64,000 bases of DNA. Source: Paludibaculum fermentans. Its GTDB lineage: Bacteria > Acidobacteriota > Terriglobia > Bryobacterales > Bryobacteraceae. The stretch is from the NCBI RefSeq assembly GCF_015277775.1, contig NZ_CP063849.1:620001-684000 (forward strand), read 5' to 3'. A program made the translations under genes and the position numbers. Under the pieces are notes generated by a model. It ran no database searches, had not been told where the DNA came from, and worked only from the letters and a program-made list of their open reading frames with translations. Shown here piece after piece: positions 57,802 through 64,000 of the stretch (within the stretch, counting starts at the first letter, position 1; each line of letters begins with the position of its first letter).

Positions 57802-58884
57802 CTAATCCGCCTGACCGGCGGCGTTCTCGAACAGATAGTGGGCGACGATCCACTCCTGGCCTCCCGCAAAGCCGAACAGCTCCGCGCAGGCCAGGAAGAA
57901 GATGCGCCAGCGGTGGAGCCAGCGGTGGGCCTCGCTCTCGCCGTAGGTCTTCGAGAAGATCGCCAGGACCTCCGATTTGTGTTGATCCATCAGTTGCAGC
58001 CAGGCCTCGGAGGTTTTCTGGTAGTGGACTCCGCTGTGCCGCCAGTGATCGCGAATCCGGAAGTGATCCTGGAAGTTCAACAGCAGATCGTCGCTGGGCA
58101 TGATGCCGCCGGTGAAGAAGTGCTGGGCCATCCAGTCGGAGGCTCCGCGGACTTCAAAGGGATAGGCGACACGGCTGTGCGCAAAGATGTGGACGAAGAG
58201 CAGGGCGTTCGGACGCGACCACGAAGAGATGCGCAGCAGCAGCTCCGCGTAGTTGCGCATGTGCTCGAACATCTCGACGGAGACGATGCGGTCGAAGCCC
58301 CGCGTCGTGGAGAAGTCATTCATGTCCGACGTGACTACTTCCAGGTTGGACAGGCCGCGGCGGGCGGCCTCGCCGTCGATGTAGGCCTTCTGGGAGCGGG
58401 AGTTGGAGACCGCCAGGATGCGGCTGTTCGGATAGCGCGCGGCCATGAAGAGCGACAGTGAGCCCCAGCCGCAGCCGAGTTCCAGCACATCCTGGCCGTC
58501 CTCGAGGCGGGCGCGCTTGCAGGTGAGGGCGAGCATGGCCTGTTCGGCCTGGGCGAGGTCGCGGACCTCATCGGTCCACAGGGCGCAGCTGTACTTCCGG
58601 TGCGGGCCGAGCACCAGGCCGTAGAATTCCGCGGGCACCTCGTAGTGCTGCGCGTTGGCGGCATCGGGGTGGATCGCGATGGGACTCTGGCGAAGCTGGG
58701 CAAGGAAGCGGGCAAGCCGTTCGGCCTGTGCTTCGACGCCGCCCTGGAGTTCGTCCGACAGGCGCTCGGCGACCAGGCGCCGGATGCCGATGCGCAGGAG
58801 CCAGTCGGGCAGCAGACCGGTTTCGAGAATCCGGTTGTAGCCGGCGTCCAGGACGGGGGAAGGATTGACAGCTTGTGTGTGCAC
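57802..58884 (-). CDS. Cyclopropane-fatty-acid-synthase-like SAM methyltransferase
   Basis: The 360-residue enzyme matches CFA synthases, which methylate double bonds of membrane phospholipid acyl chains. The SAM site is QDVLELGCGWGSLSLFMAAR, followed by RIVSVEMFEHMRNYAELLL and FVHIFAHSRVAYPFEVRG. The GTG at 58884 follows AAGGAG by nine bases. It is the last gene of the leftward arm of the LitR-type island, so it may be a UfaM-type methylase for methyl-branched or furan fatty acids, or a plain CFA synthase. Confidence 0.9.
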   Translation of the reverse strand: MHTQAVNPSPVLDAGYNRILETGLLPDWLLRIGIRRLVAERLSDELQGGVEAQAERLARFLAQLRQSPIAIHPDAANAQHYEVPAEFYGLVLGPHRKYSCALWTDEVRDLAQAEQAMLALTCKRARLEDGQDVLELGCGWGSLSLFMAARYPNSRILAVSNSRSQKAYIDGEAARRGLSNLEVVTSDMNDFSTTRGFDRIVSVEMFEHMRNYAELLLRISSWSRPNALLFVHIFAHSRVAYPFEVRGASDWMAQHFFTGGIMPSDDLLLNFQDHFRIRDHWRHSGVHYQKTSEAWLQLMDQHKSEVLAIFSKTYGESEAHRWLHRWRIFFLACAELFGFAGGQEWIVAHYLFENAAGQAD

Positions 58885-58889
58885 TGGAT

Positions 58890-59666
58890 TCAGCTCCTTG
58901 GAAACCACGGGACAAAGGCGCTGGTGGTTTGCTGGTAGCGGCGGTAGTCGTCGCCCTTGGTGCGCAGCGCCTGGGCCTCTGTGGCTGGAATGCCGGTCAC
59001 GCGGAACAGGAAGTAGAGCATCAGCAGCGGGCAGGCGATGGACACAGAGCCGTAGGGAGCATTCCAGGCAAACAGCGCGAAGGCCACCCAGATGAGCCAC
59101 TCGAAGAAGTAGTTGGGATGGCGCGAGTAGCGCCAGAGTCCGGCTCGGCAGGTGGTGCCGCGATTAGCGGCATTGGCCTTGAAGGCGTGGAGTTGCGCGT
59201 CGGCGAGGGTCTCGCCCAGCATGGCTACCAGCCACAAGGCGATGGCCGCGTACTCGGTCCATGCCAGGCTCGGCCTTGGATTCATGGCGGACAACAGGAA
59301 AGGTGTCGCGAGGATGACGGCGAGAAGAGCCTGAAACTGGAAGAACAACAGGAACTTCGCTGGGATGTTGGTGCGCCATTCGCGCCGCAGTTGGACATAG
59401 CGGCCTTCTTCCGGATGTCCGATGACCCGGGTGAACAGCAGATAGAAGGAGAGCCGCAGACCCCAGGTCATGGCGAGTGCGGCCATGATGAGACGGCGGG
59501 TGCTCCAGCCGGCGCCCAGGACGGCGTAGAGGGCCCCGAGCAACGCGAGTCCGCCGGCCCAGCCGGGATCAACGACGGAGGCATTCTTCAAACGCAGGTG
59601 AAGCAGCCAGAGCAGGGTCATCAGCAGGCAGACCGCGCCCGCGCCCAGGAGAATCAGGTGACTCAT
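58890..59666 (-). CDS. DUF1295 / steroid-reductase-like membrane protein
   Basis: The 258-residue protein has about six hydrophobic helices and the family C-terminus GLWRYSRHPNYFFEWLIWV, shared by DUF1295 and 3-oxo-5-alpha-steroid 4-dehydrogenase-like enzymes that may bind NADPH. It lies 5 nt upstream of the methyltransferase gene and overlaps the DUF2062 gene by 4 nt. DUF1295 genes occur regularly beside CFA-synthase genes. A lipid reductase role is a guess. Confidence 0.82.
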   Translation of the reverse strand: MSHLILLGAGAVCLLMTLLWLLHLRLKNASVVDPGWAGGLALLGALYAVLGAGWSTRRLIMAALAMTWGLRLSFYLLFTRVIGHPEEGRYVQLRREWRTNIPAKFLLFFQFQALLAVILATPFLLSAMNPRPSLAWTEYAAIALWLVAMLGETLADAQLHAFKANAANRGTTCRAGLWRYSRHPNYFFEWLIWVAFALFAWNAPYGSVSIACPLLMLYFLFRVTGIPATEAQALRTKGDDYRRYQQTTSAFVPWFPRS

Positions 59667-60151
59667 GCCGCCACCTCTCCGGGACGCGCAGATTCCGTCC
59701 GTACGCGCTTGAGGATCGGCACCAGGGCCAGATAGAGAAGACCGGTGGCCACCAGGCCCGCGGCGAGCCAGACGAGCAGAGCGTGAAGAGTCGCTGTCCA
59801 GAGGAGGCCGATGGCGCGCAGGGCATCCGTGCGGATCAGTTGCAGGATGACGGAGAGCGAGAAGCCGGCGGATTCCTTTCCGAACAGGCGGGCGCCGGCC
59901 TGCAGCAGCGGCACCAGCAGCGCCAGTTGCAGAGGGTAGACCAGCCAGTTGACCAGTTGGATGGCGGGCAGATTCAGGCGGAAGGCCAGTGCGGCCAGGG
60001 TGCAGAGAAGTCCGGTCGAACCCAGGACCGGTGTGACTCCCAACGTGATGCCCAAGGCAATGGTGAGGGCCAGTTTTTCCGGCGACAGGCCTTGCTTCAG
60101 GAGGATCAACAGCGGATTCGCCACTCTGCGCCGCCACCAGGAACTGTTCAT
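59663..60151 (-). CDS. DUF2062 membrane protein
   Basis: The 162-residue product matches DUF2062: SPEKLALTIALGITLGVTPV, LGSTGLLCTLAALAFRLNLP, then IQLVNWLVYPLQLALLVPLL. These are small inner-membrane proteins of unknown function. The ATG at 60151 is inside the end of the preceding gene (4-nt overlap); an upstream extension would duplicate that gene's region. Confidence 0.78.
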   Translation of the reverse strand: MNSSWWRRRVANPLLILLKQGLSPEKLALTIALGITLGVTPVLGSTGLLCTLAALAFRLNLPAIQLVNWLVYPLQLALLVPLLQAGARLFGKESAGFSLSVILQLIRTDALRAIGLLWTATLHALLVWLAAGLVATGLLYLALVPILKRVRTESARPGEVAA

Positions 60152-60483
60152 GCGGGCCGCCTGAGCAGTAAGGACTCCGGGCTTTGGCCCGGCCTCAGCC
60201 GGAAGAGCTGAATGAGGACGTAGAGGGCGGTGGCAATGTTGCCCAGACCCATGATCAACACAAACCACAGAATGCGGACGCCGAGGCCGCGCTCCTTGTA
60301 CAGCACCCAGACATAGAAGGTGAGGAAGCCGCAGTAGGCGTCCCAGAGGGTCGCGATGGCCCAAGGATTTGCCGCGTAGCCGGCCCAGGCGGACCACAGG
60401 CTCAGCTCCATGGACGTGCGGACGGTGACGATTAACATGGCGGCGCAGATCGCGCCGAAGAGCAGTTTGAGAGTAAGGATCAC
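60148..60483 (-). CDS. DUF1475-like small membrane protein
   Basis: The 111-residue product has three membrane helices (LTLKLLFGAICAAMLIVTVR; DAYCGFLTFYVWVLYKERG; ILWFVLIMGLGNIATALYVL) and the WDAYCGF block that I associate with DUF1475. The GTG start overlaps the stop codon of the LitR-type regulator. Function is unknown; its place in the island suggests an envelope-lipid role. Confidence 0.72.
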   Translation of the reverse strand: MILTLKLLFGAICAAMLIVTVRTSMELSLWSAWAGYAANPWAIATLWDAYCGFLTFYVWVLYKERGLGVRILWFVLIMGLGNIATALYVLIQLFRLRPGQSPESLLLRRPA

Positions 60484-61415
60484 AGGCTAGCGCCTTTCAG
60501 ACGGGCCAGGTGCCCCTCGAACTCCTCGAAATTGTGCAAGGCAAACAGGCGAGAGCTGCGCAAGGCGGGCAGCACTTGCCCGGCCTCTCCGCCGCCGATC
60601 CAGAGTTCCGTGTTCATCGGGCGTTGTGAGGCCACCAACCGCAACTCTTCGATGACCTCCTCTGCCGAAGAACTTGTTTTTATTGCGACGACGATGGCGA
60701 GGGGGCAGGTGCGTTCGCTGGCGGCGATAATCTCCCGCGCCGGCAGATTGGGTCCCAGGTAGACCGCTTCGAAGCCGCTGGAGGCGGCGAGCATCGCCGC
60801 GGCCAGGATCCCGAACTCGTGCATCTCACCAGAGGGCGTAGCAAAGAGGATGCGGGCCTGCGGCGCGGAGGGGGTGTTGAGCCGCATGAGTCCGCCCAGC
60901 AAGTTGCGCAGGCTGGAGGAGACCATGTGTTCCTGCGCGATGCTGAGGGTGCCGGCATGCCATCGATCGCCCACCTCGCGCATGAGAGGCAGCACCACGT
61001 GCGTCAACAGTTCCCGGGCTGGTAGCAAGGCGGCCAGGCGGCCCAGCAACGCATTGGCCTGGGTGAAGTCGAAGGCCTCGATGGCGTTCAGGACCGGCTC
61101 CAGCAATTCGGGCGTACCCGCGGCTGCGGCAGTCGGCTGGACCGTGCCCTGGACAGCGGCTGGTGCGGCGAGCAGTGCCTCCAGGGCCGTATCGGTGAGT
61201 GACGCCACCTGGCCGATTGCGTGGCCTCTCTCGATCACATCCCTGAGCAAGCGGAGGCGGCTGATCTGGCCGGCGTCGTAGACTCTGCCGCGCTCGCCCC
61301 GCACGGGCACTACCGCCTGATAACGGCGCTCCCACGCACGCAATGTATCAATACTGATGCCGGTCAGCTTGGCTGCGGCCCGAATGGGGTACTGAACCGG
61401 ACTCTGGGTGCTCAC
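60480..61415 (-). CDS. LitR/CarH-type MerR photoreceptor repressor with B12-binding domain
   Basis: Residues ~8-75 are a MerR helix-turn-helix (YPIRAAAKLTGISIDTLRAW). Residues ~100-185 are the four-helix cap with the WHAGTLSIAQEHMVSS motif, whose W and E-H residues cradle adenosylcobalamin in CarH. Residues ~190-310 are a Rossmann B12-binding domain with E-x-H-x-x-G (GEMHEFGILAA), whose His is the lower cobalt ligand. Known relatives repress in the dark and release DNA on light-driven loss of adenosyl. The GTG start is preceded closely by GGAGAG. Confidence 0.92.
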   Translation of the reverse strand: MSTQSPVQYPIRAAAKLTGISIDTLRAWERRYQAVVPVRGERGRVYDAGQISRLRLLRDVIERGHAIGQVASLTDTALEALLAAPAAVQGTVQPTAAAAGTPELLEPVLNAIEAFDFTQANALLGRLAALLPARELLTHVVLPLMREVGDRWHAGTLSIAQEHMVSSSLRNLLGGLMRLNTPSAPQARILFATPSGEMHEFGILAAAMLAASSGFEAVYLGPNLPAREIIAASERTCPLAIVVAIKTSSSAEEVIEELRLVASQRPMNTELWIGGGEAGQVLPALRSSRLFALHNFEEFEGHLARLKGASL

Positions 61416-61421
61416 CTCTCC

Positions 61422-61450
61422 AGAGTAATGCCGCCGCAGAATCTCGTCAA
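61422..61450 (-). promoter_or_regulatory. Predicted promoter of the LitR-type regulator operon
   Basis: On the minus strand TTGACG, 17 bases, TACTCT. The -35 box lies in the left end of the palindromic operator, and the expected start site is near 61415, the GTG itself, so the message would be almost leaderless. Confidence 0.5.
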
Positions 61451-61476
61451 GTATTTGTCATGGACAAATTCTTGAC
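61446..61476. promoter_or_regulatory. Operator palindrome between the divergent lipid-island arms
   Basis: GTCAAGTATTTGTC, a 3-nt centre, then GACAAATTCTTGAC: 13 of 14 positions pair. Each end carries the -35 box of one divergent promoter. It is the obvious binding site for the adjacent LitR/CarH-type repressor and would block both arms at once. Confidence 0.75.
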
Positions 61477-61500
61477 AGCCTCGACTGGGCACGCTACGCT
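61472..61500 (+). promoter_or_regulatory. Predicted promoter of the desaturase operon
   Basis: TTGACA (perfect -35), 17 bases, TACGCT. The -35 box is the right end of the palindromic operator. The expected start site is about 33 nt before the ATG at 61540. Confidence 0.6.
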
Positions 61501-61539
61501 CAAAGTGCGTTGTGGAAGGGCATCGGGCTGGGAGCACTC

Positions 61540-62364
61540 ATGGCTGGCACTCTGCGCAATTACCAATTCGGCGTGGTCTTTCTCTTCTTTCTGATTCATG
61601 CGGGCGCGCTGGCTGTGTGGTTGGTTCCATTCCATACGAGCCTGCTTTGGTGGCTGGCGGCTACCTATTCGATTCGCATGTTCGGTGTGACGGCCTGGTA
61701 TCACCGCTACTTCAGCCATCGCAGCTACAAGCTGGGGCGGTTCTCGCAGTTCCTGATGGCGCTGCTGGCCGAGACATCGGGGCAGAAGGGTGTTCTGTGG
61801 TGGGCGGCCCATCACCGGCAGCACCACCGCTACGGCGACGAGGAGCAGGATGTGCACTCGCCCTGGCAGCGCGGGGTCTGGTGGTCCCATGTCGGGTGGG
61901 TGTTGTCGAACGAGCACGACGCCTACGATCCGAAGCTGATCGCGGATTTCGCCAGGTTCCCTGAGCTACGCTGGCTGGACCGTTATCATTGGGCCCCGCC
62001 GCTGCTGTTTGCTGCCGCGGTGTTTTTCATGGGCGGCCCCGCGGTCTTTGTCTGGGGGTATCTGGTCTCGACGGTGCTGCTGTACCACGGAACCTTTTCG
62101 ATCAACTCGCTGGGGCATCTGTTCGGCAGCCGCCGCTTCCACACTCCAGATCAGAGCCGCAACAACTGGGTGCTGGCGTTGCTGACCTTCGGGGAGGGCT
62201 GGCACAACAACCATCACTTCTCCATGGCCAGTTGCCGGCAGGGCTTCCGCTGGTGGGAGATCGATATTACGTACGGCGTCCTCAAGCTGCTGAGCCTGGT
62301 GGGGATCGCGAAAAACCTGAGGCCGTTCCGGGCCACCGGGCAGGAACAGCGGAGAGCTGCCTGA
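61540..62364 (+). CDS. Fatty-acid desaturase (acyl-CoA Delta9 type)
   Basis: This di-iron membrane desaturase introduces double bonds into acyl chains. All three His boxes are present: HRYFSH (in WYHRYFSHRSYK), HHRQHH and HNNHH (in GEGWHNNHHFSM). The 274-residue protein starts at the ATG at 61540 after GGGAG. It is the first gene of the rightward arm under the LitR-type operator and overlaps the next gene (TGATG). It would supply the unsaturated acyl substrate for the methyltransferase. Confidence 0.93.
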   Translation: MAGTLRNYQFGVVFLFFLIHAGALAVWLVPFHTSLLWWLAATYSIRMFGVTAWYHRYFSHRSYKLGRFSQFLMALLAETSGQKGVLWWAAHHRQHHRYGDEEQDVHSPWQRGVWWSHVGWVLSNEHDAYDPKLIADFARFPELRWLDRYHWAPPLLFAAAVFFMGGPAVFVWGYLVSTVLLYHGTFSINSLGHLFGSRRFHTPDQSRNNWVLALLTFGEGWHNNHHFSMASCRQGFRWWEIDITYGVLKLLSLVGIAKNLRPFRATGQEQRRAA

Positions 62365-63611
62365 TGCGCATTGCAGTGATCGGTAGCGGTATCTCCGGTC
62401 TGGCCGCGGGATGGTACCTGAGCAAAAAGCACGAGGTCTCTCTCTTCGAGAAGGAGACCCGGCTGGGCGGACACACGAATACGGTGATGGTGGAGTCGAG
62501 CTCCGGGCCTGTGCCCATCGACACCGGCTTCATCGTGCACAACGACCGGACCTATCCCAATCTGTGCCGCCTTCTGGATGAACTGGGCGTGCGGACACAA
62601 CCGAGCGATATGTCCTTCGGGGTGTGCTGCCGCCGCACCGGCTTCGAATACTCCAGCCGCGGGCTGAATGGCTTCTTCGCGCAGCGATCGAATCTCTTCA
62701 GTCCGCGGCACTACCGGCTGTTCCGGGAGATTCTGCGGTTCAACCGGACCGCACCGAAACTGCTGAACGAACCTGGCGCGGGGGAAGCGACCATTGGCGA
62801 ACTGCTCGATGAGGGGCGCTATGACGAGAGCTTCTGCCAGCACTACCTCTATCCCATGGCGGCGGCTGTGTGGTCGATGTCGCTGGATGCCATACGGTCC
62901 TTTCCGGCCCTCACTTTGCTCCGGTTCTTTGACAACCACGGAATGCTCGGCATCGATACGCATCCTCAGTGGAAAGTGATCCGCGGAGGCAGCAACACGT
63001 ACATCCCGTTGCTGGCTGCTCCGTTCAGAGACCGGATCCACTCGGGCGTGACCATTGAATCAATTGGCCGGAGCCACACCGGCGTGACCCTGAAGTTTCG
63101 CGATCGACCTGCCATGGACTTCGACGAGGTGGTGTTCGCCTGCCACGGCGACGAGGTGCTGCCTCTGCTGGAGGCGCCCACTGACACGGAGCGCGAAGTA
63201 TTGGGCAATTTCCGGACCAGCCGCAACGTAGCGGTACTGCATACGGATTCGTCGTTGCTGCCGGCCCGGCCGCAGGCGCGGGCGAGTTGGAACTACAACC
63301 TGGGATTGCAGGCAAAGGACCTCGTCACGCTCACATATCACATGAACCGTCTGCAGTCGCTGCGGACTCCGGAGGAGTACTGCGTCACCCTGAACGGCGA
63401 GGAGGCGATTGATGCTTCCAAGGTCCTGCGCCGCATCGTCTACACCCACCCGCTCTACACCCGGGAAGCCGTGCGCGCCCAGGATCGCTGGAGTGAGATC
63501 AGCGGCCGCAACCACACGCACTTCTGCGGGGCGTACTGGTTCTACGGGTTTCACGAAGACGGCCTGAAGTCGGCCATGCGAGTGGCGCGCACGCTCTCGG
63601 TGGAGTGCTAA
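62364..63611 (+). CDS. FAD amine-oxidase-like protein (COG2907 type)
   Basis: The 415-residue protein has an N-terminal FAD motif (IAVIGSGISGLAAGWYLSK) and ends with the second flavin-contact block (FCGAYWFYGFHEDGLKSAMR). COG2907 proteins are consistently encoded beside CFA-synthase-like genes, and plant cyclopropane synthases carry a related FAD domain. In Rhodobacter an amine-oxidase-like protein of the furan-fatty-acid pathway (UfaD) acts as a desaturase on methylated chains. That assignment here is an inference. It overlaps the desaturase gene. Confidence 0.88.
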   Translation: MRIAVIGSGISGLAAGWYLSKKHEVSLFEKETRLGGHTNTVMVESSSGPVPIDTGFIVHNDRTYPNLCRLLDELGVRTQPSDMSFGVCCRRTGFEYSSRGLNGFFAQRSNLFSPRHYRLFREILRFNRTAPKLLNEPGAGEATIGELLDEGRYDESFCQHYLYPMAAAVWSMSLDAIRSFPALTLLRFFDNHGMLGIDTHPQWKVIRGGSNTYIPLLAAPFRDRIHSGVTIESIGRSHTGVTLKFRDRPAMDFDEVVFACHGDEVLPLLEAPTDTEREVLGNFRTSRNVAVLHTDSSLLPARPQARASWNYNLGLQAKDLVTLTYHMNRLQSLRTPEEYCVTLNGEEAIDASKVLRRIVYTHPLYTREAVRAQDRWSEISGRNHTHFCGAYWFYGFHEDGLKSAMRVARTLSVEC

Positions 63612-63615
63612 CCGC

Positions 63616-64000
63616 ATGGAATCCGCCTTCTATTTCGGCACCGTGCGGCATCGCCGCTTTCGTCCCGTGCCGCACGAGTTTCGCTACGGCCTGTTCATGG
63701 CCTTCCTGGACATCGACCGCATTCCGGAGCTGATGGGGATCTCGCGCCTGCTCAGCTATAACCGTTTCAACTGCGCCAGCTTTGAACAGCGCGATCATTT
63801 TGGCGATCCGCGGCTGACGCTGCGGGAGCGGCTGGCGGCGGAGGCGCGGGAGCGCGGGCTGAGCCTGCCGGATGGCCCCATCTTCCTGCTGACCCATCTG
63901 CGCTACTACGGCTACAACTTCAACCCCGTATCTTTTTTCTACTGCTACGACTCCGGCCTGCATCTCAGTTGCATCGTGGCGGAAGTAAACAGCACGTTTG
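63616..64000 (+). CDS. DUF1365 protein, 3' end outside window
   Basis: The visible 128 codons start MESAFYFGTVRHRRFRPVPH and include the DUF1365 signature THLRYYGYNFNPVSFFYCYD. The gene is 4 nt downstream of the FAD protein and is cut by the window edge. DUF1365 genes nearly always accompany COG2907 and CFA-synthase-like genes. The function is unknown but is expected in the same lipid modification. Confidence 0.9.
   Translation, partial: MESAFYFGTVRHRRFRPVPHEFRYGLFMAFLDIDRIPELMGISRLLSYNRFNCASFEQRDHFGDPRLTLRERLAAEARERGLSLPDGPIFLLTHLRYYGYNFNPVSFFYCYDSGLHLSCIVAEVNSTF

Follow-up and report, generated by a model that had tools for sequence, protein, structure and literature searches.

The closest described counterpart of the gene cluster studied here is the Ufa-Fuf pathway of Rhodobacter sphaeroides (RSP1091-1087, RSP2144) and Rhodopseudomonas palustris (RPA2569-2571, RPA0924). 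In Rhodobacter and Rhodopseudomonas, according to PMC7380195, cis-vaccenate is methylated by UfaM, a second double bond comes from the flavin adenine dinucleotide (FAD) protein UfaD, UfaO (DUF1365) puts in an oxygen derived from O2 to give the furan, and FufM supplies a second methyl group; UfaM, UfaD, UfaO and FufM make the mono- and dimethyl furan fatty acids of Rhodopseudomonas. Here we describe a cluster of Paludibaculum fermentans found at the end of a 64,000-nucleotide stretch of DNA (the window, positions 620001-684000 of a 9.48-Mb contig in a 9.53-Mb genome), in which the same four enzyme types are joined to a CarH-type regulator. From its genes and its operator, we consider it likely that this cluster is a self-contained, light-inducible furan fatty-acid factory placed behind CarH.

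Regarding regulation, control of furan genes by ChrR/sigma-E is established in Rhodobacter and is part of the core of that regulon in other organisms too (PMC6852236, PMC7074977), and light control of the ufaM region is reported in Pseudomonas, where the repressor is a class II member of the LitR family that works with a LOV partner and has a different operator (PMC9758184). In Pseudomonas putida and P. mendocina (PplR/PmlR; ufaM, phrB, folE) a repressor of the same CarH/LitR family stands, as in Paludibaculum, beside UfaM-type and FAD-dependent genes. However, light is sensed there by the LOV partner and the repressor site is TGTACA-N12-TGTACA, whereas the protein described here has the residues for adenosylcobalamin (AdoCbl) and an 11-bp TnnACA operator. 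The operators known for CarH proteins consist of 11-bp repeats in tandem, nnnnTnnACAn, that lie over promoter elements (PMC9304148). The CarH proteins of Thermus, Bacillus and myxobacteria share with ours the domain plan, the cofactor residues and this type of overlapping operator, but their targets in the literature examined are carotenoid genes, while in Paludibaculum the predicted targets are fatty-acid genes and the repeats stand as an inverted pair in the gap that separates two divergent arms. Compared with the Ufa-Fuf systems, the methyltransferases belong to the same clades; there, the genes are split over several loci and in Rhodobacter are driven by sigma-E/ChrR in response to singlet oxygen, whereas the Paludibaculum cluster is one locus with an added desaturase, DUF1475, DUF2062 and the CarH regulator.

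Organization of the cluster

Positions 57802-64000 contain eight genes in two divergent arms, and the named families exceed the Pfam curated cut-offs. The whole cluster has nine genes in about 7.8 kb and ends near 65647, most of it lying within those positions. The plus arm encodes a membrane fatty-acid desaturase (61540..62364; PF00487 FA_desaturase, 69 bits), a predicted maker of cis-monoenes with the histidine boxes HRYFSH, HHRQHH and HNNHH; a UfaD-type FAD desaturase (62364..63611; PF01593 Amino_oxidase, 77 bits); a UfaO-type DUF1365 oxygenase (63616..~64374, the window ending at 64000; PF07103, 263.8 bits, whole protein); and, lying beyond the window, a methyltransferase of the UfaM type, the second gene of the cyclopropane fatty acid (CFA) synthase type (~64364-65647, L003:7365-8648; CMAS, 303.9 bits). 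On the minus strand, the other arm consists of carH (60480..61415; MerR_1 47 bits, B12-binding_2 50 bits), a small DUF1475 protein (60148..60483; PF07343, 43 bits), a DUF2062 protein (59663..60151; PF09835, 48 bits), a DUF1295 membrane protein (58890..59666; PF06966, 237 bits) and a fufM-like S-adenosylmethionine-dependent methyltransferase of the CMAS family (57802..58905; PF02353, 142 bits), predicted to carry out the second methylation of the furan ring. A gap of 124 bases separates the carH start (61415) from the desaturase ATG (61540). There are 4-base overlaps between carH and DUF1475, DUF1475 and DUF2062, and DUF2062 and DUF1295, and the desaturase and FAD genes overlap by 1 base. This packing of overlapping genes of the named families around CarH had been noticed in an earlier reading of the letters (hereafter, the sequence-only reading), and the profile matches agree with it.

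Enzymes of the predicted furan fatty-acid pathway

Orthologues of UfaD, UfaO and UfaM occur together in the cluster. For comparison we used three Rhodopseudomonas genomes, a set without R. sphaeroides UfaM and strain CGA009; each of them has UfaD-UfaO-UfaM at one site and, elsewhere, a CFA-family gene adjoining a DUF1295 gene, and two of the three (G081, G082) carry a further CFA-type gene. The UfaD of the window is 38-39% identical to its Rhodopseudomonas counterparts along residues 2-412 of 416, and the cluster's UfaO and UfaM are 36-37% and 39-40% identical to theirs over most of the length. The in-window methyltransferase, in turn, is 52-54% identical to the Rhodopseudomonas gene adjoining DUF1295. 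The CFA-family genes named in R. palustris are UfaM (RPA2569), RPA3082 (38% identical to R. sphaeroides UfaM, its deletion giving no significant change) and RPA0924, which is FufM (26%) (PMC7380195). Since the DUF1295-linked gene is the less UfaM-like of the two candidates (27.7% identity over 224 amino acids, against 30.9% over 382 for the other CFA gene), it is fufM by elimination in two of the three genomes.

A methyltransferase tree of 55 sequences from 33 chosen loci separated the two types. All 26 FufM-type sequences, including the in-window gene and three Rhodopseudomonas genes, formed one clade (100/100), all 25 UfaM sequences formed another (96/92), and four Cfa and RPA3082-like sequences fell outside both. 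The in-window methyltransferase, which the sequence-only reading had described as CFA-synthase-like, is thus of the FufM and not the UfaM type, and UfaM lies just past the window. The direction of that reading was right, with the further correction that DUF1365 corresponds to UfaO, for oxygen insertion, and the FAD protein to UfaD, for the second desaturation (PMC7380195). Furthermore, the only full-length CMAS genes of the genome are the two in the cluster, the other ten of twelve matches being partial and of at most 44 bits; the in-window gene, the one scored in this way, reached 144.6 of the 400 bits of the NCBIfam Cfa equivalog. We rejected cyclopropane synthesis because neither cluster methyltransferase groups with Cfa and the genome has no other full-length CMAS gene. 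Cyclopropane products are unlikely; of what the sequence-only reading had proposed, a lipid pathway of the Ufa type is supported.

FabA was absent at its cut-off in the genome (one match, 32.7 of 238 bits), so the cis-monoenes probably come from desaturases. Judged by its genes, the furan pathway looks complete in the cluster, with its own substrate desaturase. A second membrane desaturase (L004:5474-6328), 37% identical to that of the cluster, is found about 5 Mb away, where its neighbours, judged by eye, seem to encode a histidine kinase and a response regulator.

The same enzymes could also yield another product, namely methyl-branched or methylated conjugated diene acyl chains, or cyclopropanes, in place of furans. 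UfaM by itself does yield methylated monoenes (PMC7380195), and the family names still read cyclopropane synthase. However, UfaO and UfaD orthologues share the operon, UfaD and UfaM accompany DUF1365 in 78 and 77 of the 79 loci found through it (see below), and the grouping of both methyltransferases away from Cfa points in the same direction, which makes a non-furan product improbable.

The CarH-type regulator and its operator

The product of carH matches Thermus CarH 5c8d (phmmer E 1.2e-24, residues 8-247 aligned), shows the class I plan of a MerR DNA-binding domain followed by B12-binding domains, and contains the motifs WHAGTLSIAQEH and GEMHEFG. The four signatures of cobalamin photoreceptors, GxxW, EH, GxxH and GxxxP (PMC11796333), were recognized by eye as GDRW-H, EH, GEMH and GPNLP. 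Going by the roles described in PMC10442372, the cofactor residues are retained: the adenosyl-holding Trp and Glu, the His that acts as lower ligand, and the His to which the cobalt passes after light. No other full-length CarH was found in the genome, in which a corrinoid adenosyltransferase is also present. Taken together, this CarH is probably of the AdoCbl photoreceptor type, with a predicted light-dependent release from DNA.

Between the two arms there is a putative operator core, the inverted repeat TCAAGTATTTGTC-ATG-GACAAATTCTTGA (61447..61475; 13+3+13, one mismatch between its arms). Its right half is a tandem-repeat site (61461..61477, plus strand) with two 11-bp direct repeats of the CarH type, TGGACA (61461) and TTGACA (61472), that match the published TnnACA motif (PMC9304148); the left half would serve the carH arm, with a poorer match. 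The second of these is also the -35 element of the enzyme arm: a probable desaturase-ufaDOM promoter, identified by eye, runs along 61472..61500 of the plus strand (TTGACA at 61472-61477, 17 bp, TACGCT at 61495-61500), and a similar layout is seen in several relatives. On the minus strand, the sequence suggests a possible weaker divergent promoter for the carH arm (61422..61450; TTGACG, 17 bp, TACTCT). With its -10 element (TACTCT) at 61427-61422, transcription would begin on the GTG start codon or directly beside it, and carH may be leaderless. The cofactor residues, the four signatures and a CarH-type operator on the shared promoter all accord with the photoreceptor type that the sequence-only reading had assigned to this CarH/LitR regulator.

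To place this operator in its genomic context, the whole genome was searched with TTTGTCNNNGACAAANNCTTGACA, allowing up to three mismatches and using the reversed pattern as control. The site between the arms showed 0 mismatches on one strand and 1 on the other. Elsewhere in the genome only background was found, with two 3-mismatch matches for the pattern and also two for the control; it should be noted that the search concerned the extended pattern and that weaker sites may exist. A role of this CarH as a carotenoid switch was considered and rejected: the two SQS_PSY genes are 3 Mb off, and the extended operator occurs nowhere else above background. These two genes, we presume, may belong to hopanoid synthesis.

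Another explanation is that CarH senses B12 status or oxidative state instead of light, the pathway being switched on when adenosylcobalamin is scarce. Known CarH needs AdoCbl to bind its operator, so that a B12 shortage would derepress (PMC9304148), and some relatives (L038, L041) are without the cobalt-taking His. Nevertheless, the CarH of the window keeps that His together with the Trp, the Glu, the lower His ligand and the four light signatures, and the same enzyme module is tied to ECF/ChrR pairs (extracytoplasmic function sigma factors, ECF) elsewhere and to light in Pseudomonas through a class II LitR (PMC9758184). We therefore regard a switch of this kind as unlikely.

Conservation of the cluster and its control in relatives

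In a set of relatives comprising 81 genomes with ours, 21 carried DUF1365, one of them as a fragment that was not used further; of 396 genomes sampled across the phylum, 61 carried it (ours and one other overlapping the first set). The surroundings of 20 + 59 = 79 loci found through this gene were read, several of them on short contigs, with own-profile thresholds of at least 90 bits for the enzymes and at least 200 bits for CarH. Besides UfaD and UfaM, already mentioned, these loci contain UfaO (75), DUF1295 (53), the FufM type (53) and the desaturase (41). The cluster is not a chance assembly, as the enzyme set recurs in relatives with about 37-93% protein identity and also across the phylum; CarH homologues are 25-85% identical.

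Among the 79 loci, CarH is present in 26 and an ECF sigma factor or ChrR in 8, the latter being a lower bound given the few ECF seeds, and no locus has both (p 0.048 for mutual exclusion, a statistic that ignores kinship). When CarH and ECF are mapped onto the UfaD tree, a minimum of two changes is required; an exchange of the sensor therefore seems to have taken place. In three loci of family f33 (L219, L221, L229), an ECF sigma-ChrR pair and a lipocalin are inserted between ufaD and ufaO.

We also surveyed the operator, using the published motif unfitted and asking for at least two strict tandem repeats in the roughly 300 bases that precede the operon; 77 of the 79 loci were usable. Such repeats were found in 16 of the 26 CarH-linked loci (0.07 expected from shuffles), in none of the 8 ECF-linked loci and in 3 of the 43 others (Fisher p 2.3e-7 for 16/26 against 3/51). 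The contigs of the three other carriers (L026, L189, L215) are short or end close to the locus and may not reach as far as a CarH gene, and the repeat of L026 is A+T-rich and may be due to chance. The operator core is alike in loci of the same family and in far relatives, its long form GTCATGGACAAAnnnTTGACA being common to 9 of the 19 sites (families f1, f25, f34, f56 and f68), and in other families CarH is sometimes preceded by other genes in its arm. That CarH merely lies beside the lipid genes and controls something else would agree with its absence, at the threshold used, from 53 of the 79 homologous loci, but it is very hard to reconcile with an operator that sits on the lipid-operon promoter and in its extended form is not found elsewhere above background, with the recurrence of a like operator in families where CarH is not always first in its arm, and with the lack of any locus shared by CarH and ECF/ChrR (with the reservation on kinship given above).

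The enzyme set was also found on plasmids. In L048 (plasmid p4 of Acinetobacter haemolyticus), the order desaturase-FAD-DUF1365-CFA-DUF1295-methyltransferase is that of single-operon relatives, while L047 (a Burkholderia plasmid) arranges these families differently and lacks the desaturase. L048 is tied to a histidine kinase and L047 to an ECF sigma/anti-sigma pair, and an own-profile search found CarH, DUF1475 and DUF2062 in neither of them. The identities of UfaO and other proteins of these plasmids are lower still (29-49%). The set of L048 lies between transposase genes and is possibly a mobile photo-oxidative cassette. Finally, in two loci of one genus, L223 and L226 (G331:C29:2021-2752 and G195:C38:6930-7661), the DUF1365 frame has one internal TAG, which could reflect an error, decay or another code.

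Accessory genes

Three proteins of the minus arm, DUF1475, DUF2062 and DUF1295, probably act as accessories in the pathway, and the first two are probable new accessory families. DUF1475 occurs in 7 of the 81 genomes of the relatives set (ours included), in each case as part of the cluster and no more than 4 kb from the DUF1365 gene. Across the 79 loci there are 25 with DUF1475, 18 with DUF2062 and 15 with both. In other lineages a DUF2878 gene is located between UfaM and DUF1295 (four Pfam-confirmed examples, with another order in L030), and it was also found in a Cupriavidus cluster. DUF2062 and DUF2878 were together in none of the 79 loci and in none of the 46 complete clusters (p 0.0007, again ignoring kinship), and DUF1475 and DUF2878 in 4 of the 79 loci and 2 of the 46 complete clusters. 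From this distribution, the DUF1475-DUF2062 pair may replace DUF2878. Homology between DUF1475 and DUF2878 was considered and rejected: a profile-comparison probability of 93%, obtained from untrimmed frames, dropped to 0.7% after trimming. A single-sequence structure model of DUF1475 was helical but poor (predicted local distance difference test, pLDDT, 66; predicted template modelling score, pTM, 0.39).

DUF1295 is related to the steroid 5-alpha-reductase/ICMT families and appears as the partner of the fufM-like gene, from which it is at most 300 bp away in 39 of the 47 loci with both; the two also adjoin in the three Rhodopseudomonas genomes. It should be considered that RSP1087-1089 are dispensable for the furan in Rhodobacter (PMC7380195), so accessory genes need not be catalytic.

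Both arms are bounded by convergent neighbours that look unrelated by eye. The sequence-only reading had suggested continuing past 64000 in search of a photolyase or further genes. Further genes are there (the end of the DUF1365 gene and the ufaM-like gene); no photolyase was noticed by eye in the open reading frames of the 10 kb past the cluster, the profile search having covered the first 2 kb of these. On the minus strand past the cluster, L003:10351-12753 has NrfD-like membrane, 4Fe-4S and cytochrome-like proteins that, by eye, form a respiratory-complex-like set.

Proposed mechanism

The working that we infer for the cluster is as follows. In the dark, CarH loaded with AdoCbl would occupy the 11-bp repeats between the arms. 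There it would cover the -35 element that drives the enzyme arm, and probably also the one upstream of carH, and block both arms. Light would cleave the Co-C bond of the cofactor, CarH would be released and both arms would be transcribed. The membrane desaturase would then introduce a cis double bond in the acyl chains, which UfaM would methylate; UfaD would add a second, conjugated double bond, UfaO would close the monomethyl furan ring with oxygen from O2, and the FufM-like enzyme would place the second methyl on the furan. By analogy with the described systems, the furan chains would intercept singlet oxygen by reacting with it and so protect the membrane, giving the cluster a photo-oxidative protective role.

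Several observations weigh against a light-inducible furan pathway under CarH. Regarding the regulator, the second B12-binding domain (PF02310) is just below the Pfam cut-off (28.5 of 32.1 bits), and the protein scores 112.7 of 400 bits against the NCBIfam CarH equivalog NF052513, far below the cut-off, so it is a divergent relative that we term CarH-type. In the operator region, the two repeats on the carH side (minus strand) are imperfect, the two on the plus strand being strict, and a consensus promoter scan called neither the desaturase-arm nor the carH-arm promoter. Among relatives, 45 of the 79 loci have neither CarH nor ECF within the stretch read, and the strict tandem operator is missing upstream in 10 of the 26 CarH-linked loci, one of them (L038) being a near-miss; a kinship-corrected test of the operator-CarH association, with 5 pairs on well-supported branches, gave a median p of 1 at low power. 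On the enzyme side, the Rhodopseudomonas strains compared differ from that of PMC7380195, with fufM identified by elimination, and UfaD and UfaO were assigned through identity and operon partners and not through a tree with Cfa-like outgroups. In addition, the regiochemistry of the first desaturase (C9) is a guess; if it holds, the furan ring should be two carbons nearer the carboxyl than that of Rhodobacter, with 7M5/7D5 arising from 16:1 and not 9M5/9D5.

Significance

The enzymes of the cluster are known; their direct B12-light (AdoCbl-CarH) control, with the desaturase and the FufM type in one unit, is apparently new. Among the literature matches listed, from which subscription papers were mostly missing, no paper connects a class I CarH with furan fatty acids, which is weak evidence of novelty, and none connects DUF1475 or DUF2062 with the furan pathway.

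The phylum consists largely of non-phototrophic soil bacteria. As a tentative and rather doubtful extension, membrane furan lipids, and not only carotenoids, could be a light-induced armour across this phylum, made by a cassette that is plugged into interchangeable sensors (AdoCbl-CarH or ECF-ChrR), in which DUF1475 and DUF2062, or DUF2878 instead, would be the missing membrane partner, for example an electron donor of UfaO or a substrate handler.

If the proposed working of the cluster is true, DUF1475 and DUF2062, being bound to the cluster, would give access to the question of the UfaO reductant, and a new kind of B12-dependent, light-controlled promoter would be on offer. Furthermore, one transferable cassette would hold the whole synthesis of furan fatty acids, up to and including the dimethyl step, and the B12-photoreceptors, known as switches of carotenoid genes, would gain a second class of targets, the membrane furan lipids.

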